Assembly (NCBI GenBank): GCA_029624765.1
Contig: JARSSO010000059.1
Coordinates: 124,001-188,000, forward strand
Direction: 5' to 3'
From: Candidatus Contendibacter sp.
Lineage (GTDB): Bacteria; Pseudomonadota; Gammaproteobacteria; Competibacterales; Competibacteraceae
Length of the DNA: 64,000 bases
Within the stretch, counting starts at the first letter, position 1; each line of letters starts with the position of its first letter. The position numbers were made by a program, and so were the translations under genes. Positions 37,836 to 55,720 of this stretch are shown here, piece after piece. The notes below the pieces were generated by a model, which saw only the letters and a list, made by a program, of their open reading frames with translations, was not told the DNA's origin and did no database searches.

Positions 37836-37874
37836 GCTGAGAATTTGCGTCATTTCATTGTTAAGGCCAACGGT

Positions 37875-38596: not shown

Positions 38597-39778
38597 TTAG
38601 AAGTCCACGCGCGTGCCGATGGAAATTCCGTTCTGATCGCCGTAGAAGATGGTGCCTGGATCAGATATGAAAACAGTACCGCCGGATACGCTGGTTATGG
38701 TGGGTTGCTGAGCGTCACGGCCGACATATTCAATCCATAGCCGGGTCCGCTTGCTGAAGTTGTACTGATAGCCCAAGGCGTAGTTTTGGATGGGGTCGGC
38801 CCCAGAAAGACCCGTGTCCAGTTGACCATAGGCGGCGCTGATGACATTGTTGCCGAAGGTATAGGAACCGGTCAGATAGGCGCTCCAAGGGGTGTCAAGT
38901 CCACCGAAAGCCGCGAACAAGGGCTCGTAGACCCCCCACTGATTCAGTGTGCCTTGTTCGTAGGTCAAGCCAATGCTGAACGCTCCAGTCTGATAGCCCA
39001 CGCCGATACCCCACTGATCCCGATCCAGATCAACGACGGGAATGCCCGCGCTATCATAGAGCGTCCTTCCATTCAGGGCGATATACGTGGCGCCGACGAA
39101 GAACGGTCCATTGGTGTATTTCAGGGCGACCGTCCATTCATCAATCCCATCCGACCATCCATCCCGCTCATTGGTGGGGAAAGTTCCTACGCCATCCCTG
39201 GTGATGCTACTTGCCATGACCAGCATGGCCGAGGCGCTGAATCCACCGAAATCCGGCGTCGAATAGTAAACGCTGCTCGGCAGGCGTTCCAAGGTCCCTC
39301 CGGATTGCGCATTGGAAACATCCGTGGTGGAAGAACGGACGAAGCCGTTGTTGGAACCCCCCAGCCATACCGTTGGGCCAAAGCTTAAGGAAGTGTTAAA
39401 GATATCGTTGATACCCACGACTTCGTAGTAGGGGGTGACTTGCGTGCCGACCGTCAACTGACCAAAACCACCCTTCAGGCCAACGAACTTGGGCCGATCT
39501 CCCTGTAGATTGCCGCCGTCGGTGACATCGACGCCAAACTCATATTGGTAGACGGCGCTCAAACCGCCACCCAGATCCTCGGAACCCTGGACGCCGAGCC
39601 GGGAGGCATTGTTGACCACATCCCAATTGGCGTCGCCTTCAAAGAGATTGAAAAGGTTATCATCGTCGTTGTAATCCACCGACACCCGCGCCGAGCCATA
39701 CAGGATGGTATCGGCCTGCGCGGCTAGGGGAGCGGCAAGGGTGGCGGCAACCGCCAAGGCAAGAACAGACTTTTTCAT
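38597..39778 (-). CDS. Gram-negative outer-membrane porin (paralog 1)
   Basis: 393 residues from the ATG at 39778. Signal peptide MKKSVLALAVAATLAAPLAA, cleaved before Asp of ADTILYG. A beta-barrel pattern of alternating aromatic and polar strands ends in the typical C-terminal Phe (GTRVDF), which the BAM machinery recognises. DLGGGLSAVYQYEFGVDVTD, then LKGGFGQLTVGTQVTPYYEV and GYQYNFSKRTRLWIEYVGRD are shared with the upstream paralog. General trimeric porin of the betaproteobacterial/Neisseria-like porin_4 family; the solute is unknown. It has its own promoter and terminator. Confidence 0.93.
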   Translation of the reverse strand: MKKSVLALAVAATLAAPLAAQADTILYGSARVSVDYNDDDNLFNLFEGDANWDVVNNASRLGVQGSEDLGGGLSAVYQYEFGVDVTDGGNLQGDRPKFVGLKGGFGQLTVGTQVTPYYEVVGINDIFNTSLSFGPTVWLGGSNNGFVRSSTTDVSNAQSGGTLERLPSSVYYSTPDFGGFSASAMLVMASSITRDGVGTFPTNERDGWSDGIDEWTVALKYTNGPFFVGATYIALNGRTLYDSAGIPVVDLDRDQWGIGVGYQTGAFSIGLTYEQGTLNQWGVYEPLFAAFGGLDTPWSAYLTGSYTFGNNVISAAYGQLDTGLSGADPIQNYALGYQYNFSKRTRLWIEYVGRDAQQPTITSVSGGTVFISDPGTIFYGDQNGISIGTRVDF

Positions 39779-39886
39779 GGCATGATTCCCAAGTTGTGGC
39801 GCATGTCCAACCAAGCTCAAAATCCGCTTTCCAATCAAATAGATGGGCTGATTGGAAAACAGTCTTGAATCACTATTTGGAATGAA

Positions 39887-39915
39887 TTTATATACTGATC
39901 GCGGCAAAAAAGCAA
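39887..39915 (-). promoter_or_regulatory. Promoter of porin 1
   Basis: On the minus strand: -35 TTGCTT (39910-39915), 17-base spacer, -10 TATAAA (39887-39892). A CAGTTGC element spans the -35, as it does in the porin 2 promoter. Confidence 0.65.
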
Positions 39916-40045: not shown

Positions 40046-41194
40046 TCAGAAGTCGACGCGGGTACCGATGGAAACGGTCTGCTTGCTGCCAACCAACTCA
40101 GAGTCAACGTCCTGGCCGATGTATTCAACCCAAACCCGGGTGCGCTTGCTGAAGTTGTACTGGTAACCCAAGGCCCAGTTGTTGATGTCGCTTTGCGTGA
40201 GAATATTCCCATTGGCAAGGAAGAGCTGGCCATCGTCGGGGGTCATGTAGCCATACGCACCCCGGATGACATTGTTGCCAAAGGTGTACTGACCGGTCAG
40301 ATAAAAGTTATCGGTCTGGCCGAAGTACTGAGTGTTGACATCACCCCGTTCCCAATTGACGGTAACGGCAAAGGGGCCCGCGTTATAACCAAACGCCAAG
40401 CCATATTGTTCACCGTCCCAGGTGGGCCGGGTGAAGAAAGCATCAAAACCAGGACCTTCAAGCGCCATGTAGGTGCCACCCGCGAAGAACGGCCCGTTCT
40501 TGTAGGAGGCCGAGATGCCCCACATGTCGATGTCGCTGGAAAGATTGGCGGGAACCAGATTGGTCGTGCCGGAGATGCGAGTATCGCCGCAGCCCGTGCC
40601 GTAGCGAAGTTCCGTGGGCACCTGCGGATCGGTGGGCGGGCACTGGCCGTTCATCACCAGCATCAACTGGGCGCTGAAGCCGCTCCAGTTGGGCGAAGTG
40701 TAGATCAGGCTGTTGTCCATGCGCGTGCCGAAGGTGTTGCCCAGATAGACGCTGTCGCTACTGAACAGCTTGGTGCTGTTGAAGATATCGGCGATGCCCA
40801 TCACGTTGTAGTAGGGAGTCCATTGGGTGCCGATAGTCACCGAACCCCAGCTCGAACCCTTCAGACCGACCCACTTCGGGCGGTTGCTGTTAAGATTGCC
40901 GCCATCGGTGACGTCCACGCCGAACTCGTACTGATAGATGGCGCTCAGACCACCGCCCAGATCTTCCTCACCCCGCACGCCCAGGCGAGACGCGTTGTTG
41001 AAGACATCCCACGAATCGGTGCCGGCGGTGAGCCGAACCAGCGAGCCGTCGGGCGCCCGAGCATAGTTGGAGTTGAAATCGCTGTAATCGACCGACACCC
41101 GGGCGGAACCATACAAGGTCGTGTCGGCGTGGGCGGCGGAACCAAAACCAACCAGCGCAGCGGCGACGGCCAGCGCAAGAGCAGACTTTTTCAT
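40046..41194 (-). CDS. Gram-negative outer-membrane porin (paralog 2)
   Basis: 382 residues from the ATG at 41194, with aggag 6 bases upstream. Signal peptide MKKSALALAVAAALVGFGSA, cleaved near AHA-DTTLYG. Same architecture as paralog 1: NNASRLGVRGEEDLGGGLSA, then IYQYEFGVDVTDGGNLNSNR, WGSVTIGTQWTPYYNVMGIA and NFSKRTRVWVEYIGQD, ending in RVDF. The surface-loop regions differ between the two paralogs, suggesting different pore selectivity. A terminator separates them, so they are transcribed independently. Confidence 0.94.
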   Translation of the reverse strand: MKKSALALAVAAALVGFGSAAHADTTLYGSARVSVDYSDFNSNYARAPDGSLVRLTAGTDSWDVFNNASRLGVRGEEDLGGGLSAIYQYEFGVDVTDGGNLNSNRPKWVGLKGSSWGSVTIGTQWTPYYNVMGIADIFNSTKLFSSDSVYLGNTFGTRMDNSLIYTSPNWSGFSAQLMLVMNGQCPPTDPQVPTELRYGTGCGDTRISGTTNLVPANLSSDIDMWGISASYKNGPFFAGGTYMALEGPGFDAFFTRPTWDGEQYGLAFGYNAGPFAVTVNWERGDVNTQYFGQTDNFYLTGQYTFGNNVIRGAYGYMTPDDGQLFLANGNILTQSDINNWALGYQYNFSKRTRVWVEYIGQDVDSELVGSKQTVSIGTRVDF

Positions 41195-42260: not shown

Positions 42261-42339
42261 TGGGGATTTCCCTTCTTTGGCTCCAGGGGAGCGGACGGTG
42301 GGCGTGAAGCGATGCTAAATTCTGCTAAATTTGCAGGCC

Positions 42340-43656
42340 ATGATACCAGCCCTATTCCCCCTGCTGGCGCGGGCCGCGCCAAACACGCCCATCGCCTGGC
42401 GGCATGGCCAGCCTGTCGTCCGCGCGGCCTTTCTGCGCCATGTCGCCGGTGTCGCTGGTCGGCTGCCGCCCGCGCGCTTCATCTTCAATCTGTGCGAGGA
42501 TCGCTATCGGTTTCTGGTTGCGTTCGCCGCCGTGGGCGTGAATGGTCAGACCAACCTCCTGCCATCTAGCCGCGCCAGCCTGCACCTGCGCCAACTGGCC
42601 GAGGATTATCCCGACAGCGCCCCGATCACGAATGACGACCTTGATGCGTGGTTGGCGTTGGAGGGGGTTGCCGAGCCTGTTCCCGCCATGCCCGAACTAC
42701 CAGCCGAGCAGGTTGTAGCCATCGCCTTCACCTCGGGCAGCACCGGCCGCGCCAGACCCAATACCAAAACCTGGGGTGAATTGATCAACGGCGCGGCGCA
42801 GGCGCGGCAACGGTTTGGCTTCGCGCCGGGCATGACGATCGTGGCGACCGTACCCCCGCAACATATGTACGGCCTGGAAACCTCGATCATGGCGCCGCTG
42901 GCGAGCGGTGTCAGCGTTCATGGCGGACGGCCCTTCTTTCCGGACGACGTGCGCGCCGCGCTGGAGGCCGTGCCGCCGCCGCGGGTACTGGTCACCACGC
43001 CGGTTCATCTCCAAGCCTGTGTCCAGGCTGACCTGTCCTGGCCGCAATCGACTTTCCTGATTTCGGCGACCGCGCCCCTGTCCCCGACGCTCGCCGCCCG
43101 GGCCGAGGCCGTGTTCGCCGCTCCGGTGCTGGAAATCTACGGCTGCACCGAGGCCGGTTCCATCGCCAGTCGCCGCACCCTGGACGGTGACCGCTGGCGA
43201 CTGTACGAGGGGTTCCGGTTGCATGACGGCTGCTTGTCCGGCGCGCATCTGCCGGAGCCGGTCGCCTTGAACGATATGGTCGAGGAATGCGGCCCAACCG
43301 AATTCAAGCTGCTCGGTCGCCGGGAAGACCTGGTTAATATCGCCGGCAAGCGAACCTCGCTGGGGTATCTGAATCATCAACTCAACGCCATCGAAGGCGT
43401 GGTGGAGGGTGTGTTCGTGATCCCCGACGCCGCAGGAACCGAGGTTCGGCGGTTGCTGGCCGTGGTGGTCGCGCCCGGACTGGACGAACGGCGATTGCTC
43501 GCCGCGCTGGCCGAGCGGCTCGATCCGGTGTTTCTGCCCCGGCCTCTCGTCAAGGTGGATGCGCTGCCGCGCAACGAGACCGGCAAGGTGACGCGCGCCG
43601 CCTTGCTGGCCCTGATCGCCATTGCTCACCCCTCCCCGAGCACCCATGAATTCTAA
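42340..43656 (+). CDS. AMP-dependent ligase of the aryl-polyene locus (hydroxybenzoate/acyl-activating)
   Basis: 438 residues from the ATG at 42340. Shorter than general CoA ligases; this is the form seen in aryl-polyene clusters. FTSGSTGRARPNTKTWGELI is the P-loop, VPPQHMYGLETSIMAPL, YGCTEAGSIASRR and GRREDLVNIAGKRTSL follow, and the catalytic Lys is in NETGKVTR. Expected to activate the aryl starter acid as an adenylate and load it on the carrier protein. First gene of the locus; the next gene starts inside its last codons. Confidence 0.85.
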   Translation: MIPALFPLLARAAPNTPIAWRHGQPVVRAAFLRHVAGVAGRLPPARFIFNLCEDRYRFLVAFAAVGVNGQTNLLPSSRASLHLRQLAEDYPDSAPITNDDLDAWLALEGVAEPVPAMPELPAEQVVAIAFTSGSTGRARPNTKTWGELINGAAQARQRFGFAPGMTIVATVPPQHMYGLETSIMAPLASGVSVHGGRPFFPDDVRAALEAVPPPRVLVTTPVHLQACVQADLSWPQSTFLISATAPLSPTLAARAEAVFAAPVLEIYGCTEAGSIASRRTLDGDRWRLYEGFRLHDGCLSGAHLPEPVALNDMVEECGPTEFKLLGRREDLVNIAGKRTSLGYLNHQLNAIEGVVEGVFVIPDAAGTEVRRLLAVVVAPGLDERRLLAALAERLDPVFLPRPLVKVDALPRNETGKVTRAALLALIAIAHPSPSTHEF

Positions 43657-43999
43657 ATCGCCGTGCTCCGTCGCTCCGCCTCCGCCGTTTCCAAATCCCG
43701 CCAGACGCCAGGTGATCGCCGCCGACCATCCCAGCCTGAAGGGGCATTTCCCCGGTCATCCGATTGTGCCGGGCGTGGTGATTTTGGAGGAGGTAATCCA
43801 GGCGTTCGAGGATTGGCGGCCGGAGAGCCGGGTGGTCGGAATGCCGGTGGTAAAGTTTCTGGCGCCGTTGCGGCCGGGGCAGCCGTTCGTTATCCGGTTC
43901 GCCGAGTCAGGCGTTCGCGGCGTTCGGTTCGAGTGCGTCCGCGACGACGGTCGGGCGGTCGCGCAAGGTTGCCTGACCATGGCGTGCGATGAGAATTAG
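43646..43999 (+). CDS. FabZ-like hotdog dehydratase (ApeI-like)
   Basis: 117 residues from the ATG at 43646, overlapping the ligase gene by 11 bases. HPSLKGHFPGHPIVPGVVIL followed by EEV is the FabA/FabZ active-site helix with its His. MPVVKFLAPLRPGQPFVIRF follows. Predicted 3-hydroxyacyl-ACP dehydratase making the conjugated double bonds. In studied aryl-polyene systems such a protein pairs with a second hotdog subunit; the likely partner here is at 48847. Its stop overlaps the stop of the convergent methyltransferase gene by four bases. Confidence 0.82.
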   Translation: MNSKSPCSVAPPPPFPNPARRQVIAADHPSLKGHFPGHPIVPGVVILEEVIQAFEDWRPESRVVGMPVVKFLAPLRPGQPFVIRFAESGVRGVRFECVRDDGRAVAQGCLTMACDEN

Positions 44000-44766
44000 G
44001 CGTGTGAGATGGGGATTGCACCGTCCTTGCGCCCGAAATAAGCCCGGAACAGATCGAATTCCACGTCGCAGCCCGCCTCGGCGAAGCCGGCGGCGCGGAT
44101 CGCTTGAAGGATGGTTTCGGGGGGAACGCAGTTCTCGATGGTATCCCAGTAATAATGCATGAGGGTTTGCAGGTCGCGCTGGCCGGTGGTCAGCCAGCCG
44201 AGCAGCGGCACCAGTCGCCCCAGATAGAGTTTGAGCAGGGCGCGCTTGACCGGATGAGCGGGCCGGGTAATTTCCAGGATCAGGAGCACGCCGCCTGGCC
44301 GCAACGCGCGGTAAAATTCACGGAACGTGACGTTGAGATCGGCGACATGGCGCAGCGCGTAGCCCATGCTGACCAGATCGCAGCAGGCGTCGGCGACCGG
44401 CAACCGCTCCATCAGGCTCTGCATCAGCGGAATGCCCAACAGCCGGCGGACTTCGGCCAGCATCCCGGCGCTGATATCCAACCCGATCACGGCGCGCGGG
44501 TCGCCGGTGATGGCCAGCGCCTGCCGCGCCACCAGGCCGGTGCCGGTGGCGACATCGAGCACGGTCATGCCGGGGCGCAGCCCCGCCCGCAACAGGGCTC
44601 GGCGGCGGTACCAGTTGCCGGAGCCGAGCGACAACAGCCGGTTGACGTGATCGTAGTAGCGGGCGGTGCGGTCGAACAACCCACGCACGAAGGCCGGTCG
44701 TTGCGCCAGATCGGAATAATAGTCTGGCAGTGTCGGATGCGGTTGCAGCGGTTGGTCGGATTTCAA
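43996..44766 (-). CDS. Class I SAM-dependent methyltransferase (UbiE-like) of the pigment locus
   Basis: 256 residues starting at a TTG (44766) that overlaps the chorismatase stop (TTGA), so it is translationally coupled. Motif I is TVLDVATGTGLVARQAL; VIGLDISAGMLAEV, MGYALRHVADLNVTFREFYR and LRPGGVLLILEITRP are UbiE/COQ5-like. In some aryl-polyene loci a methyltransferase decorates the phenolic head group. That role fits here, because it is transcribed with the enzyme that should make the aryl starter. A ubiquinone or menaquinone role is the alternative. Confidence 0.78.
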   Translation of the reverse strand: MKSDQPLQPHPTLPDYYSDLAQRPAFVRGLFDRTARYYDHVNRLLSLGSGNWYRRRALLRAGLRPGMTVLDVATGTGLVARQALAITGDPRAVIGLDISAGMLAEVRRLLGIPLMQSLMERLPVADACCDLVSMGYALRHVADLNVTFREFYRALRPGGVLLILEITRPAHPVKRALLKLYLGRLVPLLGWLTTGQRDLQTLMHYYWDTIENCVPPETILQAIRAAGFAEAGCDVEFDLFRAYFGRKDGAIPISHA

Positions 44767-45761
44767 GGGGCGTGGTTCCGGCGGTGGTGGGTGGTGACGC
44801 TGGTCGCCAGCCCTTCGATTTCGATCAGCAGTTCCCGGCGGCAGATGTCGGCGCGCAGAAAAAGCAATGGGGTATCCGACCCGAACGCCCGCGCGATCCG
44901 CGCGCGCGCCAGCACTGGATCGAGGTTTGGCCGAACGTATACCCGAAGCAGCGCGGGGTGCAGCGGCGCCGACGTCCGCTGGTTGGCTTGGGCGATGAGC
45001 GCCTCCAAATTCAGCAGGGTCTCATCCAATTGCGCCATCGGATCAAGATGCTGGCTGGCGTGACCAACCACGCTGGCGGTGCCGGAAATGTACAGGTGAT
45101 CGTCCCGTTCCCCCCAGTGTTTGAGGATGGCCCGCGAGAACGAAGGGCTTTGCGGGCCATACCGAACTGGGTAATGAAAAGCGCTGACCTGGCGAGGATT
45201 TTCGATTTGCCAGCCGGGTTCCCGGGCGGCCAGGGCATACAGCCGCAGGCCGGGTTCGCAAGTTCCGATGGCGGATGCCGCCGGCAGACGGGTTTCCAGT
45301 TCCACTTGTTCCGCCCCCAAAGCCGCGTGCCGGCCCACGCAAAACGCCCGGTACCGCTCCAGGCCGTCAACCTCCTGGTTGATGGCGGGAAAATAATTCC
45401 AAATTCGCAGCGGATGCGGATAGCCCAGAGCACGGGCCGCCGCGAACAGCCGTTGGTAGGCGGCGACGGTGAGGGATCTCAGGGCGTCCGGAGCCGATTC
45501 GTCCAGACGAAGATGCAGGAACAGGACGGCGCCGTTGTCCGCGTAATGCACCCCATCCAGAACGCCGGTCCGCGCCGGTTGCGCGCCGAGCCAGACTTCG
45601 GCGGTGGCGCCGCCCAGTTCCGGCAAGGGAACAGCGCAAATCCGCGGGTCGGTGGGGGAAGCGGTTGGCGAGCCAAAGTGGAGCAGCGCCAGCAGACGGT
45701 CGTCATTCAGCCAAGCGTCCGCCGACGCGGCGTCGCAATAAAGAATGGTGAAGGGCGTCAT
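44763..45761 (-). CDS. Chorismatase (XanB2/FkbO/Hyg5 family)
   Basis: 332 residues from the ATG at 45761; an open frame up to 45965 adds non-conserved sequence. Family features: YHYPVRYGPQSPSFSRA-like segment (FHYPVRYGPQSPSFSRAILK), YISGTASVVGHASQHLDPMA, QLDETLLNLEALI and YRAFCVGRHAAL. Chorismatases convert chorismate to 3- and/or 4-hydroxybenzoate (or a dihydrodiol) plus pyruvate. In Xanthomonas, XanB2 supplies hydroxybenzoate for xanthomonadin. This enzyme therefore probably makes the aryl starter unit; product specificity needs assay. Divergent from the main operon (221-base gap). Confidence 0.83.
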   Translation of the reverse strand: MTPFTILYCDAASADAWLNDDRLLALLHFGSPTASPTDPRICAVPLPELGGATAEVWLGAQPARTGVLDGVHYADNGAVLFLHLRLDESAPDALRSLTVAAYQRLFAAARALGYPHPLRIWNYFPAINQEVDGLERYRAFCVGRHAALGAEQVELETRLPAASAIGTCEPGLRLYALAAREPGWQIENPRQVSAFHYPVRYGPQSPSFSRAILKHWGERDDHLYISGTASVVGHASQHLDPMAQLDETLLNLEALIAQANQRTSAPLHPALLRVYVRPNLDPVLARARIARAFGSDTPLLFLRADICRRELLIEIEGLATSVTTHHRRNHAP

Positions 45762-45982
45762 GCGGTGGGATTGCGTGCATCGGGTCGATCCAGCGCGGGG
45801 CGGCGGAACGGAACGGCCAGTCCTGGCGATGGGGCAGGGAGTTTGATGGGCATGCGCGGTGAGCTTGGACGTTGCGGGCGTTGGCCATGGGACATGATAT
45901 AGTTTAAAGGCGAACTTGCAAAAGCCGATAGCACCGCCGCTCGCCGATACCCTGTCCCATCCCAATACTTAAGAGGTTACCC

Positions 45983-46252
45983 ATGGAAGCTCTCTCGCCA
46001 TTCGAGTTGGAGGTGGCTCGACTGTTGGTTGAGACCCTGCATCTGGAAGACGTCCAGCCGGAAGACATCGTGCCGGAAGCACCGTTGTTCGGCGGCGGGT
46101 TGGGCCTGGATTCCATCGATGCGTTGGAACTGGCGCTGGCGATTTCGAAAGTTTACGGCTTTCAACTGCGTTCCGAGGACAAGGACAACCTGCGCGTTTT
46201 CGCTTCGCTGCGAGCACTGAGTCAGCACGTCGCGCAAGAACGCACCCGCTGA
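45983..46252 (+). CDS. Acyl carrier protein of the aryl-polyene locus
   Basis: 89 residues from the ATG at 45983, with aagagg upstream. The phosphopantetheine Ser44 is in GLDSIDALEL. An acidic helical protein. It should carry the growing aryl-polyene chain. Some known loci have two carrier proteins; only one is seen here. First gene of an 11-gene plus-strand run. Confidence 0.9.
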   Translation: MEALSPFELEVARLLVETLHLEDVQPEDIVPEAPLFGGGLGLDSIDALELALAISKVYGFQLRSEDKDNLRVFASLRALSQHVAQERTR

Positions 46253-46333
46253 GGACCGGTTGATCGGAGAATCGTTTCCGCGCCGGATCGGGATAGTGGG
46301 ATTCTGATCGTCACCGCATTCGATAAGCAGCTT

Positions 46334-47254
46334 ATGAGCCGGTTTGCATGGAGTACCGTGTGGGTATTGGTCGCGTTGGGATCGATCCTGGCGCTGGCGG
46401 AGCCCGATTGGCGTCAAGCCTGTGCCCTGATCGGTGTGGGCGGCTGTTATATCGTGCTGCTGGCGGCGGGTTCGTTGACACCGCGCCTGGATTTCTATCT
46501 GCGCGCGGCGCGGCGCGGATCGGCTAGCCGGCCATGGGTGGCGTTGACCTTCGACGATGGTCCCGATCCGGTCACCACCCCGTTATTGCTGGAGTTGCTG
46601 CGACGCGAGCGGATATCCGCCGCGTTTTTTTTTGTGGGCGAGGCGGCGCGTCATTACCCGGATCTGGTCGCGCGAACGGCCGCCGACGGTCACCTGATCG
46701 GCAATCACTCCGACCGGCACGGTTATGGCTGGACAGTGTCGTCCACCGAGCGACTGTTCGCCGAATTTGCGGCCGCCAACCGAACCCTTGCCGATATTTT
46801 GGGTTACCCGCCGCGTTTCGCGCGGATGCCGGCCGGGATATCCCGCCCGCGGTTGGACGATGTATTGCGGCGATTGCAACTTCGTAACGTTGCCTGGGAC
46901 GTGCGGGGCCTGGAAGGTTTTTATCGCGATCCCGAACGCATCGCGGCCCGGGTCGCCCGCCGGGCGCGCAATGGTTCGATCATCCTGCTGCATGAACTTT
47001 ATTACGGAACGTCGTGCTTCAAACCCCGCCAGGCGTTGGCGACCGCGCAAGCGACCATCGATCAATTGCGCGCGCGTGGTTTTCATTTCGTGCGCTTGGA
47101 CCGGTTGCTGGAGCAGGCGGATCCCACGGTTGTGTCGAGCGACCAGAAATCGCCGCTGGAGGCGGGTGTGCTGCTGCTTGAGAATGGCGTGGACAAAGCG
47201 ATGGGTTACCGTGGCGCCGCCCCGGTCGCCCCCCGGGCAAGACGCGCCGCATGA
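46334..47254 (+). CDS. NodB-type polysaccharide deacetylase within the aryl-polyene operon
   Basis: 306 residues. Two N-terminal hydrophobic segments (about 5-50) anchor it in the inner membrane. The NodB domain follows: VALTFDDGPDPVTTPLLLEL (catalytic Asp pair), GNHSDRHGYGW (metal HxxxH), RFARMPAGISRP (variant of the RxP motif), NVAWDVRG and SIILLHELY (motif 5 with Glu for Asp). Metal-dependent de-N/O-acetylation is expected. Its target here is unknown: an amino sugar on the glycolipid carrier would fit the nearby glycosyltransferase and acyltransferase (inference). It overlaps the next gene by ATGA. Confidence 0.87.
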   Translation: MSRFAWSTVWVLVALGSILALAEPDWRQACALIGVGGCYIVLLAAGSLTPRLDFYLRAARRGSASRPWVALTFDDGPDPVTTPLLLELLRRERISAAFFFVGEAARHYPDLVARTAADGHLIGNHSDRHGYGWTVSSTERLFAEFAAANRTLADILGYPPRFARMPAGISRPRLDDVLRRLQLRNVAWDVRGLEGFYRDPERIAARVARRARNGSIILLHELYYGTSCFKPRQALATAQATIDQLRARGFHFVRLDRLLEQADPTVVSSDQKSPLEAGVLLLENGVDKAMGYRGAAPVAPRARRAA

Positions 47255-48147
47255 GTCAGGATTGGGCGCGGTTGCCGGAACGGGGCAACTTGCTGGTGTT
47301 GCGGCTGATTGTATGGATCGCCCTGCGGATCGGCCGGCCGGCGGGCCGCGCCCTGCTGTACCCCATCACTCTGTATTTCCTGGTGACCGCCCCGGCGGCG
47401 CGGCGCGGGTCCTGGTTGTTCCTGCGGCGGACGCTGGGCCGCGAGCCGGGTTGGCGGGAGCTGTTTCGCCACATCCACTGTTTCGCCGCGACCATTCTGG
47501 ATCGCGTGTATTTTCTGACCGGACGACTGCGGCCGTTCGACATCGAGATCTTCGGCGACCGATGGGTTGTGGAGCAGGCGATGTCCGGGCGGGGCTGCAT
47601 TCTGCTGGGATCGCATTTGGGCAGCTTTGAAGCGCTGCGGGCGATTGGCGTCACCTTGCGGCGATTTCCGATCAAAATCCTGATGAACACCGGCCATAAC
47701 CGCGGCATTACCGGGTTCCTTAACCGGCTGAATCCTGATCTGGCCCAGGCCATCCTTCCCATCGGCGGGCCCGATACCCTGCTCCGGGTTCAGGAAAGTG
47801 TGGCCCAGGGTTATATGGTTGGTGTGCTGGGTGATCGGGTGACGGGGGGCGAAAGAACGGTGCGCGTCCGTTTTTTCGACCGGGAGACGGCGTTTCCAGC
47901 CGGGCCGCTGTTGCTGGCGGCGCTGGCCGATTGTCCGGTCATCCTGTTCTTCGGCCTGTATCGCGGTGGCCATCGCTACGAAATCCACTTCGAGCGACTG
48001 GCGGAACGGATCGCGCTGGATCGGTGCCAGCGCCAGGAACAACTGGTCGTCTGGGCGCAACGCTACGCTGACCGGCTGGAGCATTACACCCGTCTCGCAC
48101 CCTATAACTGGTTCAATTTCTACGATTACTGGCAGGAGGAGGCATGA
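47251..48147 (+). CDS. LPLAT-type acyltransferase (COG4261, aryl-polyene type)
   Basis: 298 residues. It has the lysophospholipid acyltransferase / LpxL-like fold with the HxxxxE motif GSHLGSFEAL near residue 125; VGVLGDRVTGGERTVRVRFF, FPAGPLLLAALADCPVILFF and LAPYNWFNFYDYW follow. Such acyltransferases are standard in aryl-polyene loci, where they are thought to transfer the polyene to a lipid or glycan acceptor. The N-terminal hydrophobic helix (about 15-45) fits membrane association. Overlaps both neighbours by four bases. Confidence 0.86.
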   Translation: MSQDWARLPERGNLLVLRLIVWIALRIGRPAGRALLYPITLYFLVTAPAARRGSWLFLRRTLGREPGWRELFRHIHCFAATILDRVYFLTGRLRPFDIEIFGDRWVVEQAMSGRGCILLGSHLGSFEALRAIGVTLRRFPIKILMNTGHNRGITGFLNRLNPDLAQAILPIGGPDTLLRVQESVAQGYMVGVLGDRVTGGERTVRVRFFDRETAFPAGPLLLAALADCPVILFFGLYRGGHRYEIHFERLAERIALDRCQRQEQLVVWAQRYADRLEHYTRLAPYNWFNFYDYWQEEA

Positions 48148-48833
48148 AGGTGGGAGCAGCGTCCCGGCGCTTCGCCCGGCAACTGGGCATGGGCTGGGAC
48201 GGCCTGGCGATGCTGGCGCTGTCGAATCTGTTGTTGCTGGCGACCCTGGGTTTGAGCGGGTTGTGGTTGCTGCGCCGGGTCTGGCGCATCGCGCGGGACA
48301 CGCCGATTGCCGGAATGGAGGGGGACTGGGTGGTGGTGCTGGGCGCCCGGCTGCTCCACGACCGGGTCGCGCCCGGTTATGCCCGCCGGCTGCGCCGCGC
48401 CGCCGCGCTGCACCAGGCCGATCCCCGGCGGCGGATTCTGCTGGTCGGCGGCTACACCGGCGGCAGCGTCAGCGAGGCCGAGCGTGGTCGAGAGTTTCTC
48501 CGCGCGCTGGGCCTGCCGGCATCCTGTCTGTTTATCGAGGACCAGTCCTTGAACACCCTCGACAACCTGCGTCAGGCGCGGCGTTTGCTGGCGGGGGACG
48601 GTGCGTGGCCCTTCGTGCTGGTGACGAGCCGTTATCATTTGGCGCGCGGCGAGGCGCTGGCGCGTGGCCTGGGCCTGCGGCCAACGCCGTGCGCCGCCGA
48701 GGAGCGCCTGCGTCTGAATCCGTGGACGCTGTGGCGGCTTGGTCTGGAAGCCTGGTACCTGCATTGGTATGAGGTGGGCAAGGCCTGGTCGCGCTGGACC
48801 GGCAACCGCCACAGTCTGGCGCGGATTACCTGA
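48144..48833 (+). CDS. DUF218 (YdcF/ElyC/SanA-like) membrane-anchored protein in the operon
   Basis: 229 residues. One hydrophobic segment (about 15-40), then the DUF218 fold: WVVVLGARLLHDRVAPGYAR, ILLVGGYTGGSVSEAERGRE, LFIEDQSLNTLDNLRQA and FVLVTSRYHLARGEALARGL. Members such as ElyC and SanA affect envelope and vancomycin phenotypes, but no reaction is settled. Its place inside the polyene operon with ATGA coupling suggests an envelope step in delivery of the product (inference). Confidence 0.82.
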   Translation: MKVGAASRRFARQLGMGWDGLAMLALSNLLLLATLGLSGLWLLRRVWRIARDTPIAGMEGDWVVVLGARLLHDRVAPGYARRLRRAAALHQADPRRRILLVGGYTGGSVSEAERGREFLRALGLPASCLFIEDQSLNTLDNLRQARRLLAGDGAWPFVLVTSRYHLARGEALARGLGLRPTPCAAEERLRLNPWTLWRLGLEAWYLHWYEVGKAWSRWTGNRHSLARIT

Positions 48834-48846
48834 CCCGGTTGCAACC

Positions 48847-49296
48847 ATGCTGCTCGACAAGGCGCGAATTCACACCTTGATTCCTCACGCGGACGCCATG
48901 TGTCTGCTGGAGGCGGTGATCGCCTGGAATGAGGACAGTATCCTGTGCCTGACCCAGACGCATCGCGATCTCGCCAATCCGTTACGTCGGCAGGGTCGGC
49001 TGGCGATGGTGCACGCTTGCGAATATGGGGCGCAGGCGGCGGCGATTCACGGCAGTCTGCGCGCCCAGGCGGCGGGGCAAAGCGCCCCGGCCGGCTACCT
49101 GGCGGCGTTGCGCGACGTGCGCTGGTTCGCCGCCGACCTGGCGGATGTGGACGCACCGCTGGAAGTCGCCGCCTGCTTGGTGCTGGGCGACGCCGACTAT
49201 TGCATCTACGCGATCCAGATCAGCGCCGCCGACCGGGTGTTGGCGGAAGCCCGGATCACCATCGCGCCGCAGCCGAAAAACGGAGCCTGCGGGTGA
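48847..49296 (+). CDS. ApeP-like hotdog dehydratase subunit
   Basis: 149 residues from the ATG at 48847. LIPHADAMCLLEAVIAW carries the catalytic-type His; LANPLRRQGRLAMVHACEYG and AQAAAIHG follow. This matches the second 3-hydroxyacyl-ACP dehydratase of aryl-polyene loci, expected to pair with the ApeI-like protein at 43646. The stop overlaps the next start by GTGA. Confidence 0.83.
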   Translation: MLLDKARIHTLIPHADAMCLLEAVIAWNEDSILCLTQTHRDLANPLRRQGRLAMVHACEYGAQAAAIHGSLRAQAAGQSAPAGYLAALRDVRWFAADLADVDAPLEVAACLVLGDADYCIYAIQISAADRVLAEARITIAPQPKNGACG

Positions 49297-49853
49297 GATA
49301 CTGGATATGGCTGCCGCTGGCGTGCTGGCCGTTGGTGGGCATGGCCGACGATGCTGCGCTGGCCCAGGTGATGCGGGCGCTGGCGGCGGTGCCGGCGGTG
49401 GAAGCGACGTTTCGGGAGGAAAAGACCTTGGCGGTGCTGGACGCGCCGCTGGTCGCCACAGGGGTGTTGTACTACCGCGCGCCCGATTTTCTGCGCAAGC
49501 GAACCCTGCGTCCGCAAGCCGAGGATTACGAGGCCGACGGCCACTGGCTGACGGTCGAAACGCCGGATGCCGGCCGGCGCCAGTTCGATCTCAATGGCTA
49601 TCCGCAACTGCGTCCCTTCGTCGAGGCGATCCGGGCGGCCCAGGCCGGCGACCAGGCGGCGCTGGAGCGTTACTACCAGTTGGAATTTCAAGGGACGTCC
49701 GCCGCCTGGAGCTTGCGCCTGACGCCCCGCGCCGCCGACGCGCAACGCTACGTCGCCGCCATCGTGCTGCGCGGCCGGAACGGCCGGATCGACAGCATGG
49801 AGACGCTGGAACCGAACGGCGACCGTGGCTTGATGACGATCACGCCGCGCTGA
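49293..49853 (+). CDS. LolA-like outer-membrane lipoprotein carrier of the locus
   Basis: 186 residues from the GTG at 49293. Signal peptide RYWIWLPLACWPLVGMAD. Mature domain LolA-like: ALAQVMRALAAVPAVEATFR, TLAVLDAPLVATGVLYYRAP and MTITP near the end. Probably ferries the lipid-linked polyene across the periplasm to the outer membrane, as proposed for aryl-polyene loci. Confidence 0.83.
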   Translation: MRYWIWLPLACWPLVGMADDAALAQVMRALAAVPAVEATFREEKTLAVLDAPLVATGVLYYRAPDFLRKRTLRPQAEDYEADGHWLTVETPDAGRRQFDLNGYPQLRPFVEAIRAAQAGDQAALERYYQLEFQGTSAAWSLRLTPRAADAQRYVAAIVLRGRNGRIDSMETLEPNGDRGLMTITPR

Positions 49854-49864
49854 GGCAAATTTCC

Positions 49865-52186
49865 GTGCACCGCTGGCCCGTTCCACTGCTCTGGTTGCTG
49901 GCCGCTCTGGGTTGCGGCTGGATCGTGCTGACCACGCCGGTCGCCGCCGATCTGACCCTGTTTGCCTCCCGCGCCGATCCGGTGGCGGAACTGCTGCTGG
50001 ATCAGTTGCGCAGCGGCCCGACCACCCGCTTGATCCTGCTTGGACTGGCCGGCGGCGCGGAAACCGAGCGTGCCGCCGTCAGCCAGCGGCTGGCCGAACG
50101 GCTGCAAGCCGGCGACGGATTCGCCCGGGTGGCCAACGGCGCGGACGCGCTGTCCGAAACCGAGTTGCGGGCGCTGTTCGCCCACCGTTATCGACTGAGC
50201 CCGACCGTCGCCCCGGAACGCTTCACGGTGGACGGCCTGCGCGCCGGGTTGCGACAACGCCTGGCGGAACTGCAATCGCCGTTGGCGGTGTTCCAGAAAC
50301 GCTGGCTGGCCGGCGACCCGACCGGCGAACTGCTGAATCTGCTCAAGCAGTGGCAGGGTGGTTTGCGCGAACCGGTGAAACGGCTGGGCGTCTGGTTCTC
50401 GCCAGACAGCGACCGCGCGCTGCTGCTGGTCGAGACCCGCGCTTCCGGTTACGATCTCGCCGCCCAGCGCGAAGCGGTGACCACCATCCGCGCGGCGTTC
50501 GCCGCCGCTGGCGCGGAAACCGGCGTGCGGCTGGAGATGAGCGGCCCTGGCGTGCTGGCGACGCTGGCGGCGGATGCGATCCACGCCCAGGCGGAGTTTC
50601 TCAGCGCGCTGGCGCTGGCGGCGGTGGTGCTGATTCTGCTGCTGGTCTACCGCTCGGCGCGCACCGTCTGGCTTGGGGCGTTGCCGATGCTGGCGGCGTT
50701 GCTGGCCGGCGCGGCGGCGGTGGACCTGATGTTCGGCAAGATGTACCTCATTACCCTGGCGTTCAGCATGACCCTGCTGGGGGAGACGCTGGACTATCCC
50801 ACGTACCTGTTCAGCCATCGACGGGCGGCGGAAACGGTGACGGACACCTTGCGCCAGTTGTGGCCGACCTTGCGGCTGTGCATGGCGACCACAATGCTGG
50901 GTTGTCTGGCGATGCTCGACGCCGATTTTCCCGGCCTGAGCCAGTTGGGCGTGTTTACCGTCGCCGGCATCGCCGCCGCCATGGCGACCACCCGCTGGCT
51001 GTTGCCGGCCCTGTTGCCGTCGACCTGGACACCGCCAAGACCGACTGCCATCGGCCCGTGGGCGGACCGGGCGTTGCAGCCCCGGCCCCGGTTGGCCCTG
51101 GCGCTGGGAGGGTGCGGCTTGCTGGCGCTGCTGGCCTTGATCGTCAAAGCTCCGCCGCTGTGGGAAAACGATCTGGCCGCGCTCAGCCCGGTGCCGCGCG
51201 AACTGATGCGGCTTGACCAGGAACTGCGCGCCGCGCTGGGCGCCCCGGAGGTCGGCCATTTGATCGCGGTCACCGCGCCGGACGCCGAAACCGCGCTGCG
51301 CCACGGCGAAACCATCGCGGCTTATCTGGATGACCGTCGGCGGGAAGGTCTGCTGGCCGGCTACGACGGCGCGATGCGCTATCTACCCAGCGCGTGGACG
51401 CAGGAACAGCGCCTGGCGGCATTGCCGGAGGCGGCGACCCTGACCGCCAACCTGGACGCCGCTTTGGAGGGCTTGCCGTTCAAACCGGGACTGTTCGCGC
51501 CGTTTCTCGACGCCGTCGCCGCCGCCCGCGCCGCGCCACCGCTGCGGCCTGAGGATTTGCGCGGTACGCTGCTCGGAACACGGGTCAGCGCACTGCTGTT
51601 TCCCGGCGCGCGCGGCTGGACCGCGCTGCTGCCGCTGAGCGGCGTGCGCGACGCGCGCGCCTTGGCCGCCGGCTTGCCGCAAGTTCAATCCAGCCAGGCG
51701 TACTACCTCGACCTGCGGGCCGAAACCAACCGGCTCGTAGCCGGCTTTCGTGAAGCGACCCTGGTTCGGCTGGCCTGGGGCGTGGCGCTGATCGTGGCGG
51801 TGGTCTGGCTCGGGCTGCGTTCCTGGCGCGGGGTTGCCGCCGCGCTCTTGCCGGTCGGATTGGCGCTGGTGTTCACCGTGGCCGCCCTGCTGGCGCTGGG
51901 CGAACGGTTGTCGCTGTTCCATCTGGTCTCGCTGCTGCTGGTGTTGGGAGTTGGCGTCGATTACGGGCTGTTCTTCAGCCGGCCGGACGCCGATCCGGAG
52001 TTGCGTCGCCGCACCCTGCACGCGCTCCTGGTCTGCTGCGGTTCGGCTCTGACCGTTTTTGGTATGCTTTCCCTGTCCGCGCTGCCGGCGCTGCGGGCCA
52101 TCGGCTTGACCGTGAGCCTGGGCGTGGCTGCCAGTTTCATCGCCGCCCTGGTGGCGGCCAGACCTTTGCTGACGAAGATGAGTTGA
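49865..52186 (+). CDS. MMPL/RND-family exporter of the aryl-polyene locus
   Basis: 773 residues from the GTG at 49865 (gagg about 9 bases upstream). Two RND repeats: an N-terminal helix (PLLWLLAALGCGWIVLTTPV), a periplasmic loop (about 30-240), a helix block (about 245-430: LALAAVVLILLLVYRSARTV, ITLAFSMTLLGETLDYPTYL), a second loop, and a C-terminal helix block (LVSLLLVLGVGVDYGLFFSR). Predicted to move the product to the periplasm, where the LolA-like protein would accept it. The frame continues upstream but only shadows the preceding genes. Confidence 0.88.
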   Translation: MHRWPVPLLWLLAALGCGWIVLTTPVAADLTLFASRADPVAELLLDQLRSGPTTRLILLGLAGGAETERAAVSQRLAERLQAGDGFARVANGADALSETELRALFAHRYRLSPTVAPERFTVDGLRAGLRQRLAELQSPLAVFQKRWLAGDPTGELLNLLKQWQGGLREPVKRLGVWFSPDSDRALLLVETRASGYDLAAQREAVTTIRAAFAAAGAETGVRLEMSGPGVLATLAADAIHAQAEFLSALALAAVVLILLLVYRSARTVWLGALPMLAALLAGAAAVDLMFGKMYLITLAFSMTLLGETLDYPTYLFSHRRAAETVTDTLRQLWPTLRLCMATTMLGCLAMLDADFPGLSQLGVFTVAGIAAAMATTRWLLPALLPSTWTPPRPTAIGPWADRALQPRPRLALALGGCGLLALLALIVKAPPLWENDLAALSPVPRELMRLDQELRAALGAPEVGHLIAVTAPDAETALRHGETIAAYLDDRRREGLLAGYDGAMRYLPSAWTQEQRLAALPEAATLTANLDAALEGLPFKPGLFAPFLDAVAAARAAPPLRPEDLRGTLLGTRVSALLFPGARGWTALLPLSGVRDARALAAGLPQVQSSQAYYLDLRAETNRLVAGFREATLVRLAWGVALIVAVVWLGLRSWRGVAAALLPVGLALVFTVAALLALGERLSLFHLVSLLLVLGVGVDYGLFFSRPDADPELRRRTLHALLVCCGSALTVFGMLSLSALPALRAIGLTVSLGVAASFIAALVAARPLLTKMS

Positions 52187-52189
52187 TCC

Positions 52190-53401
52190 ATGGCGATCAA
52201 GCCGCTGGCGATGGCCGCCTGTACCCTGACCAATGCCCTGGGGCGCGGCCTCGCGGCCTCGCGGCGCGCGCTGCGGGACGGTGAAAGCGGGTTGCGGCCC
52301 TGCGATTTCGAGGACGCCGCCCTGAACACCTGGATCGGCCGGGTCGCCGGCCTGGAGGAGGAGCCGTTGCGCGGCGCGTTTGCGCCCTTCGATTGCCGCA
52401 ACAACCGGCTGGCGCGGCTGAGCCTGGAGCAGGACCATTTCGGCGAAACCGTGCGCCAGGCCAGCGACCGTTACGGTCCCGACCGGATCGGCGTGTTCGT
52501 CGGCACCAGCACGTCCGGCATCGGCGCCACCGAGCGCGCCTATCGCCAGCGTGACCCCATCACCGGAAGCTTGCCGGCGACCTTCGATTATCGGCACACC
52601 CACAACGTATTTTCGGTGGCCGATTTCACCAGGCGCTGGTTGGATTTGACCGGGGTGGCGATAGCCATTTCCACCGCCTGTTCCTCCAGCGCCAAGGCCT
52701 TCGCCTCGGCCTGGCGGCAGATGCGGGCCGGATTTTGCGACGCCGCCGTGGTCGGAGGGGTGGACAGTCTGTGTTTGACCACCTTGCATGGCTTCAACGC
52801 CCTGGGGCTGACGTCCACCCAACCCTGCCGACCGTGGGATGTCGACCGCGATGGCCTGAACGTCGGCGAGGGGGCCGGCTTCACGTTGCTGGAATGGGCC
52901 GAACCCGGCGATGACCGGGTTCTGCTGCTCGGTTACGGCGAAAGCAGCGACGCCTATCACATGACCGCCGCGCACCCCGAGGGAACGGGAGCGGCGCTGG
53001 CGATGCAACAGGCGCTGGCGCGGGCGGATGTCGCCCCGGACCAGGTGGACTATGTCAACCTGCATGGGACCGCCACGCCGTTGAACGACGCCGCCGAGGA
53101 CCGGGCGGTGCTGCGCGTGTTCGGGCCGGACACGCCGTGCAGCTCCACCAAGGGCTGGACCGGGCACACGCTGGGCGCGGCGGGCGTCACCGAGGCCATT
53201 TTCGTTCTCTTGTGCCTGGAACAGGGACTGCTTCCCGGCACGCTCAATACCCGCCGACGCGATCCGAGACTGGGCGCGGGCATCGTCCTGGAGAACCGGA
53301 AACGCCCACTGCGGCTGGCGCTGAGCAACTCCTTCGGTTTCGGCGGCACCAATTGCAGCCTGCTATTTGGACGGGGGGTCCATGAATCCGCTTGCCGTTG
53401 A
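52190..53401 (+). CDS. Beta-ketoacyl-ACP synthase (catalytic KS of the locus)
   Basis: 403 residues, FabF/FabB fold. Catalytic Cys164 in STACSSSAK, His292 in NLHGTATPLND and His326 in KGWTGHTLGAAG form the Cys-His-His triad. FGGTNCSLLFG ends the fold. Condenses the ACP-bound aryl chain with malonyl-ACP. It should pair with the Cys-less partner encoded next, whose start lies 20 bases inside this gene. Confidence 0.93.
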   Translation: MAIKPLAMAACTLTNALGRGLAASRRALRDGESGLRPCDFEDAALNTWIGRVAGLEEEPLRGAFAPFDCRNNRLARLSLEQDHFGETVRQASDRYGPDRIGVFVGTSTSGIGATERAYRQRDPITGSLPATFDYRHTHNVFSVADFTRRWLDLTGVAIAISTACSSSAKAFASAWRQMRAGFCDAAVVGGVDSLCLTTLHGFNALGLTSTQPCRPWDVDRDGLNVGEGAGFTLLEWAEPGDDRVLLLGYGESSDAYHMTAAHPEGTGAALAMQQALARADVAPDQVDYVNLHGTATPLNDAAEDRAVLRVFGPDTPCSSTKGWTGHTLGAAGVTEAIFVLLCLEQGLLPGTLNTRRRDPRLGAGIVLENRKRPLRLALSNSFGFGGTNCSLLFGRGVHESACR

Positions 53402-54206
53402 AGCCGTCGGCCTCATGGCGCCAGGACTGGCGGGCTGGTCCGCCAGCCAGGCGGTGCTCACCGGCCAACGACCTTACGTCGCCGAACCGATGCCGGCGAC
53501 CATGGCCACGCTGCTGCCGGCCAACGAGCGACGGCGCGTTACCGCCACGATCAAGCTGGCGCTTCATGTCGCGCAGGAGGCGATGGCCCAGGCAGCCCTC
53601 ACCCCCGACCCCGCTCCCAGCAACGGGCGAGGGGAGTTGTCGGTGCGGACGGTGTTTGCGTCCTCGGGCGGGGATAGCGAGATCCTGGACAAGATCTGCG
53701 TGGCGCTGACCCAGCCCGACCGGCCGGTTTCGCCGACCCATTTTCATCAGTCGGTCCATAATACGCCCGCCGGCTACTGGGCCATTGCCACGGGATGCAT
53801 GGAACCCTCGCTCAGCCTCTCGGCCTACGATGGCAGCTTGGTCGCTGGATTGCGGGAGGCGGCGGCGCTGGCTTGGACGGATCAGGCGCGGGTTTTGCTG
53901 GTCGTCTACGATCCGCCGATGCCGTTTCCGCTGGCCGAGCGCCGCCAGATCGTCGCGCCGTTTGGCGTCGCGCTGCTACTGAATCCGGCGGCGACGGCCA
54001 GCCGGCTGGCGCTGCTGCGGCTGGAATCCGGCGCGAGCGAACAGGCAGCGGATCGGCTGGAAGACGAGGGCCTGGAGCGATTGCGCGCCGGCAATCCCGC
54101 CGCGCGTGGGTTGCCGTTGCTATGCGCCATCGCCCGGCGAGCGGCCGGGCGGGTGATATTGTCCGCTGGCGCGGACGTCGCCCTGCGCGTGGAGGTCGAG
54201 CCGTGA
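53382..54206 (+). CDS. KS-like chain-length-factor-type subunit lacking the active-site cysteine
   Basis: 274 residues from the ATG at 53382, overlapping the KS gene by 20 bases. It has the beta-ketoacyl synthase N-terminal fold (FASSGGDSEILDKICVAL, SPTHFHQSVHNTPAGYWAIA) but is about 130 residues short. Where a KS has its Cys it reads SLSAYDGSLVAGL, so Tyr replaces Cys, and no catalytic His motifs follow. In known aryl-polyene loci such a protein forms a KS:CLF heterodimer. Residues about 72-86 are coded by a dispersed palindromic repeat, an in-frame insertion. Stop overlaps the FabG start. Confidence 0.82.
   Translation: MNPLAVEAVGLMAPGLAGWSASQAVLTGQRPYVAEPMPATMATLLPANERRRVTATIKLALHVAQEAMAQAALTPDPAPSNGRGELSVRTVFASSGGDSEILDKICVALTQPDRPVSPTHFHQSVHNTPAGYWAIATGCMEPSLSLSAYDGSLVAGLREAAALAWTDQARVLLVVYDPPMPFPLAERRQIVAPFGVALLLNPAATASRLALLRLESGASEQAADRLEDEGLERLRAGNPAARGLPLLCAIARRAAGRVILSAGADVALRVEVEP
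53596..53635. repeat. G/C palindrome inserted in the chain-length-factor-like gene
   Basis: CCCTCACCCCCGACCCCGCT followed by CCCAGCAACGGGCGAGGGGA, clearly related to the sequence at 4-46 (minus strand). It codes for ALTPDPAPSNGRGE in frame. C-rich and G-rich arms are self-complementary. Confidence 0.75.
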
Positions 54207-54922
54207 AGCGCGCCCTGGTCACCGGCGGCAGCGGCGACATCGGTCGCGCCATCAGTCAGCGGCTGGCGCGCGACGGCTTCCACGTCATCGTGCACGCCCG
54301 CCAGCATCCCGAGCGGGCGGCGGAGGTCGTCGATGCCATTCGAACCGAGGGTGGCTCGGCGGAAACGGCGACCTTCGATGTCGTCGACGCCGATCAGACT
54401 GGCCGTGTCCTCGTGGAACTGCTCGAAACCGGACCGATTCAGGTGTTGGTCAACAACGCCGGCATTCACGACGACGCTCCCATGGCCGGGATGTCGTCGG
54501 CGCAATGGCGACGGGTGATCGACGTGTGCCTGCACGGCTTCTTCAACGTGACCCAGCCGCTGCTGTTGCCGATGATGGCCACCCGCTGGGGCCGGATCGT
54601 CAACATCTCCTCGCTGGCCGGGGTGACCGGCAATCGCGGCCAGGCTAATTACGCCGCCGCCAAGGCCGGTTTGCACGGCGCCACCAGGGCGCTGGCGCTG
54701 GAACTGGCCTCGCGCGGGATCACCGTCAACGCCGTCGCGCCGGGCATCGTCGCCGGTTCGGCCACGGCGGCGACATTCGACCCGGCGACGATCAAAACCC
54801 TGGTGCCGATGCGGCGCGCGGGCACGCCGGCCGAGGTCGCCGATCTGGTGGGGTTCCTGGCGTCCGAGCAGGCCGCTTATCTGACCGGACAAATCATCGG
54901 TCTCAACGGCGGCGTCGTCTGA
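54203..54922 (+). CDS. 3-oxoacyl-ACP reductase (FabG/SDR)
   Basis: 239 residues from the GTG at 54203, coupled to the preceding stop (GTGA). NADPH loop VTGGSGDIGRAI (7-18), NNAG at 84-87, catalytic Ser137, Tyr150 and Lys154 (ANYAAAKAG), VNAVAPGIV and TGQIIGLNGG. The beta-keto reduction step of polyene elongation. The longer open frame upstream is only the shifted frame of the preceding gene. Confidence 0.93.
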   Translation: MKRALVTGGSGDIGRAISQRLARDGFHVIVHARQHPERAAEVVDAIRTEGGSAETATFDVVDADQTGRVLVELLETGPIQVLVNNAGIHDDAPMAGMSSAQWRRVIDVCLHGFFNVTQPLLLPMMATRWGRIVNISSLAGVTGNRGQANYAAAKAGLHGATRALALELASRGITVNAVAPGIVAGSATAATFDPATIKTLVPMRRAGTPAEVADLVGFLASEQAAYLTGQIIGLNGGVV

Positions 54923-54931
54923 AGAGCGCCG

Positions 54932-55720
54932 ATGACCGTCGCCGTCGTCATCCCCGCCTACAACGAGGCCGCCACCATCGCCGACATCGTTCGCCGTGCC
55001 CGGCAACAGGTGGAGTGGGTGATCGTGGTGGACGACGGTTCCCGCGACGACACCGCCGCGTGGGCCGAGGCGGCGGGCGCGGTGGTGGTGCGCCAGCCCG
55101 TCAATCAGGGCAAGGGCGCCTGTCTGTGGCGCGGGATGCAAACGGCGCTGGCGGGGGGCGCGGAAGCGGTCATCACCCTGGACGCCGACGGTCAGCATCG
55201 GCCCGAGGATATTCCAAAACTGCTGGAAGCCCGCCCGCGCTGGCCCGGTTGCCCCATCGTCGCCGCCCGCCTGCAATGCCGCGCGGCCGCTCCCCGGCTG
55301 CGGCGCTTCGCCAATGGCATGGCCGACTTCTGGGTATCCTGGGCGGCTGGCTGTCCGATCCCCGACACCCAGTCCGGCTTCCGGTTGTATCCGGCCGAGT
55401 TTCTGCGCCAGGCGAACGGACCTGAACCGGGACGGCGCGGTTTCGCCTTTGAAAGCGCCCTGTTGATGCAGGCGGGTTGCCAGCGGCGCTATCCGGGGAT
55501 GGTCCCCATCGAAACGATTTACCTCGCCCAGAGCCGCCCCAGCCATTACCGGCCCTGGCGGGATACGTTGCGCATCGTGGATTTGGTGGCGTGGTCGCTG
55601 TTGAGGCGCGGGATGTATCCACTGGGTTTACTGCGTTCCCTGCGGCTACTACCATTACCCACGTTTAGCAGGGAAACCTTTTTGCAACACGAAGAAACGG
55701 GGGGAAAACATGAAATTTAG
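54932..55720 (+). CDS. Glycosyltransferase family 2 of the locus
   Basis: 262 residues, DPM1-like GT2: VVIPAYNEAATIADIV, VIVVDDGSRDDTAAW, ITLDADGQHRPEDIPKLLEA (DxD-type) and GCPIPDTQSGFRLYP. No large membrane domain follows. Probably adds a sugar to the lipid or aryl head group of the pigment, a step known in aryl-polyene loci. The next gene starts 11 bases before its stop. Confidence 0.85.
   Translation: MTVAVVIPAYNEAATIADIVRRARQQVEWVIVVDDGSRDDTAAWAEAAGAVVVRQPVNQGKGACLWRGMQTALAGGAEAVITLDADGQHRPEDIPKLLEARPRWPGCPIVAARLQCRAAAPRLRRFANGMADFWVSWAAGCPIPDTQSGFRLYPAEFLRQANGPEPGRRGFAFESALLMQAGCQRRYPGMVPIETIYLAQSRPSHYRPWRDTLRIVDLVAWSLLRRGMYPLGLLRSLRLLPLPTFSRETFLQHEETGGKHEI

Follow-up and report, generated by a model that had tools for sequence, protein, structure and literature searches.

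Few bacterial natural products are as widespread as the aryl polyenes (APEs), and how they are attached to the outer membrane is, to our knowledge, largely unsolved. The head group of the APE lipid is said, after Grammbitter 2020, to be galactosamine-phosphate-glycerol, and no conclusion here is built on it. The arcuflavin cluster of Azoarcus sp. BH72 contains arcN (azo0254), a polysaccharide deacetylase by annotation (PMC3949708), and the flexirubin cluster of Chitinophaga pinensis has a putative polysaccharide deacetylase in flxP-flxU, for which a part in export by unspecified means has been suggested (PMC3992019); a deacetylase was thus already listed in pigment loci, where the preliminary description of the present locus, made from the sequence alone, had known of no described role for it. 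The 18-gene ape cluster of E. coli CFT073 lacks both a deacetylase and a DUF218 protein, yet the APE lipid is still made (PMC8253772). Outside the pigment loci, the pair ArnC/ArnD comprises a GT2 glycosyltransferase followed by a CE4-type deformylase, both acting on undecaprenyl phosphate (PMC12748117), and the DUF218 protein ElyC regulates phosphoglyceride-linked common antigen (PMC8609368).

The DNA analysed here, termed the window, is a 64,000-nucleotide stretch of a Competibacteraceae genome, in which the genes of a NodB deacetylase, an LpxL-like acyltransferase and a DUF218 protein form a contiguous trio inside a xanthomonadin/APE locus. This trio may well be part of the anchor-building module of the aryl-polyene (xanthomonadin-type) locus, a proposition that we regard as evenly balanced. 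The locus spans about 42331 to 55720 of the window; its first half runs from the aryl ligase to DUF218, and the genes after DUF218 run from the second dehydratase to the GT2, in the following order:

42331..43656, + strand, AMP-forming aryl acid:ACP/CoA ligase with an ArcT-type role (PF00501, 3e-22)
43625..43999, + strand, FabA/FabZ-like dehydratase 1 (PF07977, 2.8e-6)
43996..44766, - strand, UbiE-like methyltransferase (PF01209, 2.3e-28)
44763..45965, - strand, XanB2-type chorismatase for the hydroxybenzoate starter (PF21168, 1.1e-37; TIGR04444, 1.2e-63), whose true start probably lies inside this ORF
45983..46252, + strand, acyl carrier protein, ACP (NF006617, 2.9e-38)
46334..47254, + strand, NodB/CE4 family deacetylase of the polyene-pigment subfamily, ArcN-like, 306 aa (PF01522, 1.4e-24)
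47251..48147, + strand, LpxL/HtrB-like lysophospholipid acyltransferase of the ApeJ C-terminal domain type, 298 aa (PF03279, 1.2e-8), with the HX4E motif kept as HLGSFE
48144..48833, + strand, DUF218 protein (ElyC/SanA/YdcF-like) with an N-terminal hydrophobic segment, 229 aa (PF02698, 2.4e-24)
48847..49296, + strand, ApeP-like dehydratase 2 (PF22817, 9.6e-5, below the gathering score)
49245..49853, + strand, LolA-like carrier (PF19574, 1e-18)
49853..52186, + strand, MMPL/RND exporter, ApeM-like, start approximate (TIGR03480, 3.2e-26)
52190..53401, + strand, ketosynthase (KS), ApeO/ArcK-like (NF006618, 5.9e-159, above the cut-off)
53382..54206, + strand, KS/chain-length-factor (CLF)-like protein, ArcJ/ApeC-like (weak beta-ketoacyl synthase matches)
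54203..54922, + strand, ketoreductase (KR), FabG-like (its profile detects KR genes in the majority of APE loci)
54932..55720, + strand, GT2 glycosyltransferase of the polyprenyl-phosphate-sugar synthase type (best NCBIfam match PpgS, 1e-27, below the cut-off)

Altogether, the locus has the KS and its KS/CLF-like partner, the ACP, aryl ligase, dehydratases and KR of an APE/xanthomonadin locus, as well as the export and anchor genes, namely the LolA-like and MMPL genes, the GT2 and a COG4261-type acyltransferase. DarA, a mark of the polyene-dialkylresorcinol type, has no match in the window genome. Only the methyltransferase and the chorismatase lie on the minus strand of the locus. The order deacetylase, acyltransferase, DUF218 with four-base overlaps on both sides, as given by the preliminary description, agrees with the ORF coordinates, and both joints of the trio share the sequence ATGA. 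Before the locus, a 21-base tandem repeat of 4.9 copies (37934-38035) encodes FQETDRK repeats close to the N-terminal end of a protein of 230 aa (37845-38537), and two related porin-like genes adjoin at 38597-39907 and 40046-41194 (-).

The deacetylase belongs to the CE4/NodB family (PF01522, 86.9 bits against a gathering score of 23.1) and falls below the cut-off of the nodulation NodB model TIGR04243 (91.5 versus 240 bits). The Asp pair and HxxxH motif that had been read from its sequence are indeed present, D74 and D75 providing the base and metal Asp of CE4 motif 1 and H125 and H129 the motif 2, in addition to the motif 5 His H220. The AlphaFold2 model (pLDDT 84.9) comprises two helices, residues 4-22 and 26-48, followed by the NodB fold. 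Among solved structures, VIA-align placed the model nearest to peptidoglycan GlcNAc deacetylases, with a Z-score of 28.5 for the Bc1960 deacetylase (PDB 4l1g). Identity with ArnD was considered and rejected on the far weaker structural match (PDB 8t0j, Z 18.7), and arn genes are absent among the locus genes scanned. A simple hydropathy scan found the two-helix hairpin in 91/103 NodBs; its loop is poor in Lys and Arg and more of these residues lie outside the loop, which by the positive-inside rule predicts an N-in/C-in topology and suggests that the catalytic domain faces the cytoplasm.

The canonical CE4 motif 4 (DxxDW), on which the preliminary description is silent, is not kept in the window NodB, which has R191, E194 and G195 instead, R191 taking the Asp position of SpPgdA and G195 the position of the Trp. 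The main pigment clade has R/D/T in this motif, and the Trp is usually Thr in polyene NodBs. Alignment counts gave Arg at the motif-4 Asp in 65/65 sequences of the main pigment clade, including 14 without an observed pigment context, in 16/16 from Bacteroidota and in 5/6 of the window clade, or 86/87 polyene-type sequences from Proteobacteria and Bacteroidota overall. Ten long paralogues of another build retain both the Asp and the Trp. The Arg might reduce or alter the activity of NodB.

How often the two additional genes accompany the pigment genes was counted at several scales. The acyltransferase was detected at E<=1e-8 in 86 of 369 genomes from the class, and a NodB at E<=1e-20 occurs in 22 of these 86 versus 13 of the 283 others, an excess over chance (Fisher 1.4e-7, kinship uncorrected). 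A strong NodB was found in 24/80 acyltransferase genomes, and 14 of the 24 carry it no more than about 11 kb away from the acyltransferase; in ten APE genomes it is located away from the main locus, and no second pigment locus was found around these unlinked NodBs, except for a GT2 neighbour in L244. Next, 60 sites, of which nearly all were acyltransferase loci, were retrieved with up to 20 kb of surrounding sequence and scanned with profiles of the window genes, which yielded 56 loci (window included) with at least 4 of 6 core genes. At a NodB threshold of 170 bits, this gammaproteobacterial set has NodB in 11/56 and DUF218 in 15/56 loci, with the two combined solely in the family to which the window belongs. 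DUF218 is the rarer of the two genes in pigment loci. The co-occurrence with acyltransferase and KS genes, whose count the preliminary description had proposed as a check, is frequent for NodB and amounts to about a quarter of gammaproteobacterial loci for DUF218, and the pair as such is confined to the family of the window.

Moreover, a genome-contig search whose profile came from ten aligned locus NodBs gave Candidatus Competibacteraceae as the nearest named relatives. Among its best 80 relatives, 61 have at least three strong pigment-core genes of APE or flexirubin-type loci within 10 kb, a share biased upwards because the search patterns were drawn from locus NodBs. The hosts of these 61 are Burkholderiales and other betaproteobacteria, gammaproteobacteria, and Chryseobacterium/Epilithonimonas with flexirubin-type loci; the plasmid collection searched contained distant NodBs only. 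The deacetylase is common in related pigment clusters and no oddity. A tie between NodB and dialkylresorcinol genes was rejected for the gammaproteobacterial sample, where DarA occurs in 17/80 APE genomes and none of the 17 is among the 24/80 with a strong NodB (hypergeometric about 0.001, kinship uncorrected); the two do coexist in loci L202 and L209, in Azoarcus BH72 and in flexirubin producers.

In a tree of 127 NodB domains, the window clade sits on a long branch and its placement is unsure. A single clade of all pigment NodBs was rejected, with 12 label changes on the tree, and constraining the window clade to join the main pigment clade is compatible with the data (AU p 0.337). A clearly separate CE4-like protein beside the KR gene in the f158 family (L116:5124-5846, L120:5133-5855 and L121:5180-5929) is a second, independent recruitment. 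In genome G199, of the same genus as G068, locus L076 (G199:C94:30700-50600) has NodB cleanly missing between the ACP and acyltransferase genes. This natural deletion was rejected as evidence that NodB is dispensable, since the locus looks decayed: the G199 genome lacks any match to the pigment ketosynthase, and an additional ORF of 930 aa separates its LolA and MMPL genes.

The partners of NodB differ among loci, being the acyltransferase in the window family, PAP2, a methyltransferase, LolA in Chryseobacterium, or a DUF2062-methyltransferase protein in L078 and L119. A PAP2 lipid phosphatase adjoins NodB in 16 loci; in many betaproteobacterial loci this PAP2-superfamily membrane protein adjoins, and often overlaps, the pigment NodB (for example L140:10716-11387, L176:10669-11367, L178, L160, L149, L151, L168 and L173). 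GT2 lies next to NodB in L129 and L192 and, by position, also in L244.

The DUF218 protein is a clear member of its family (PF02698, 86.2 bits against a gathering score of 27.6) and stays below the cut-off of the ElyC model NF007794 (38.9 versus 205 bits); its structure model, with a pLDDT of 57, was too poor for a fold search. Single-ORF fusions of GT2 and DUF218 occur in APE loci of two families (L097:13494-14891 on the minus strand and L118:3939-5330 on the plus strand), and DUF218 adjoins GT2 in L087, L094, L095 and L123 and the acyltransferase in nine loci. Elsewhere, GT2 forms a fusion with the acyltransferase (9 other APE loci) or with DUF2062 (Chryseobacterium). For the window GT2, the polyprenyl-phospho-GalNAc synthase (PpgS) model NF058614 is the best match yet remains far below its cut-off (97 versus 370 bits), and its relatives in the PDB are DPM synthase, ArnC and GpgS. 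Taken together, these fusions and adjacencies indicate that GT2, DUF218, the acyltransferase and NodB share one job. None of the literature consulted links DUF218 to aryl polyenes.

We propose that this job would be the building of a glycolipid anchor, a reading favoured by the precedents of ArnC/ArnD for a pair of GT2 and NodB-fold enzymes and of ElyC for DUF218. In the proposed model, the GT2 would work on the cytoplasmic side of the inner membrane, attaching an N-acetylated hexosamine to a lipid phosphate, and the hairpin-held NodB would strip the acetyl group at the same face to leave an amino sugar. The LpxL-like acyltransferase would then transfer an acyl chain, polyene or fatty, from the ACP to the glycolipid, DUF218 might aid the GT2 or acyltransferase with the lipid-linked sugar, in the way that ElyC acts for the phosphoglyceride-linked common antigen, and the MMPL and LolA proteins would export the product to the outer membrane. 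The gene order, overlaps, family assignments, predicted fold, kept residues, pigment-locus association and fusions were observed or computed directly; we infer the cytoplasmic orientation, substrate, order of steps and DUF218 role. The extra glycolipid step of the preliminary description finds support in so far as both genes belong with the envelope and glycolipid genes of the pigment locus and the core CE4 residues are kept.

That description went further and suggested that NodB frees an amine for attachment of the polyene by N-acylation. The translational coupling of NodB and acyltransferase in the window family, together with the retained core CE4 residues, would fit such a step; however, the coupling is limited to that family (7 loci), and elsewhere NodB is paired with PAP2, a methyltransferase or LolA. 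The LpxL family is best known for O-acylation, and its members are mainly O-acyltransferases. Since E. coli makes the APE lipid from a deacetylase-free cluster (PMC8253772), polyene N-acylation on a free amine is not needed. We thus regard N-acylation as decidedly improbable; it is one version of the glycolipid-anchor module, with no preference over a head group whose amine stays free. NodB often adjoins or is fused to a methyltransferase, which raises tailoring as an alternative to the anchor model: NodB would act with the SAM methyltransferase on the pigment or head group, for example by removing an O-acetyl group before methylation, and not on a sugar anchor. A methyltransferase is adjacent in 25 cases and fused to NodB in L101:2644-4248 (-) by the Pfam run, with a matching long ORF in L106:18305-19901, and in the gammaproteobacterial sample it accompanies NodB in 9/11 versus 10/45 loci (p 4e-4), an association that is partly phylogeny. 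PAP2- and LolA-coupled NodBs have no methyltransferase neighbour, and we know of no acetylated aryl intermediate in aryl-polyene pathways, which makes tailoring distinctly unlikely.

NodB could also act on peptidoglycan or exopolysaccharide, its place in the locus being accidental. The closest structures, peptidoglycan deacetylases, and the ten genomes with an off-locus NodB speak for this possibility, whereas the strong association with pigment loci across phyla, the common alteration of motif 4 and the predicted cytoplasmic side of NodB speak against it, and we consider it very improbable. The almost invariant Arg at motif 4 could instead mean that polyene NodBs have lost the deacetylase function and serve in binding or scaffolding; but nearly every sequence retains the metal triad, the catalytic base and the motif-5 His, which a decaying site would not be expected to do; this is the most improbable of the explanations weighed here.

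Building on the glycolipid-anchor module, a bolder and rather unlikely reading is that a CE4 subfamily facing the cytoplasm and marked by the change of the motif-4 Asp to Arg is dedicated to polyene loci in several phyla, where it would deacetylate a lipid-linked hexosamine, and that DUF218, which two families have as a GT2 fusion, would be an enzyme of the sugar-phosphate-glycerol anchor step. ElyC and SanA have envelope phenotypes, yet we know of no agreed reaction for either. If this reading holds, DUF218 would gain a biochemical role, with a handle on the synthesis of phosphoglyceride-linked glycans, and the pigment, a coloured and dispensable product, suits the testing of the DUF218 reaction. 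Concrete candidate enzymes for polyene anchoring are a deacetylase subfamily marked by a distinctive active site and a DUF218 protein linked to the GT2.

Compared to the known systems, the locus follows the same plan as the E. coli CFT073 ape cluster in polyene synthase, ligase, LolA carrier, RND exporter and the GT2/acyltransferase logic; however, E. coli ApeJ combines the GT2 and acyltransferase functions in one gene, the cluster also has ApeG, ApeD, ApeK and ApeN, and the lipid made from it without NodB or DUF218 shows that these two are not generally required. ElyC and SanA are inner-membrane DUF218 proteins, whereas the DUF218 of the window is tied to GT2 and acyltransferase genes. ArnC/ArnD similarly unite a GT2 of related type with a NodB-fold enzyme on a lipid-linked N-acylated amino sugar (undecaprenyl-phosphate-Ara4FN), but belong to another operon and pathway, and the ArnD structure is more distant from the window NodB. 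The deacetylase also resembles ArcN, whose surroundings are likewise xanthomonadin-type polyene genes together with an exporter, LolA, acyltransferase, ligase and ACP; Azoarcus arcN is flanked by a methyltransferase and a hypothetical gene in a strain with dialkylresorcinol genes, whereas the window NodB adjoins the acyltransferase, sits on a long branch and comes from a DarA-free genome. The flexirubin cluster likewise combines a deacetylase with acyltransferase, LolA, glycosyltransferase and exporter. Although flexirubin carries a dialkylresorcinol ester and the Chryseobacterium NodB is coupled to LolA, unlike that of the window, the flexirubin-type NodBs of Chryseobacterium carry the same Arg signature in motif 4 as the pigment NodBs.
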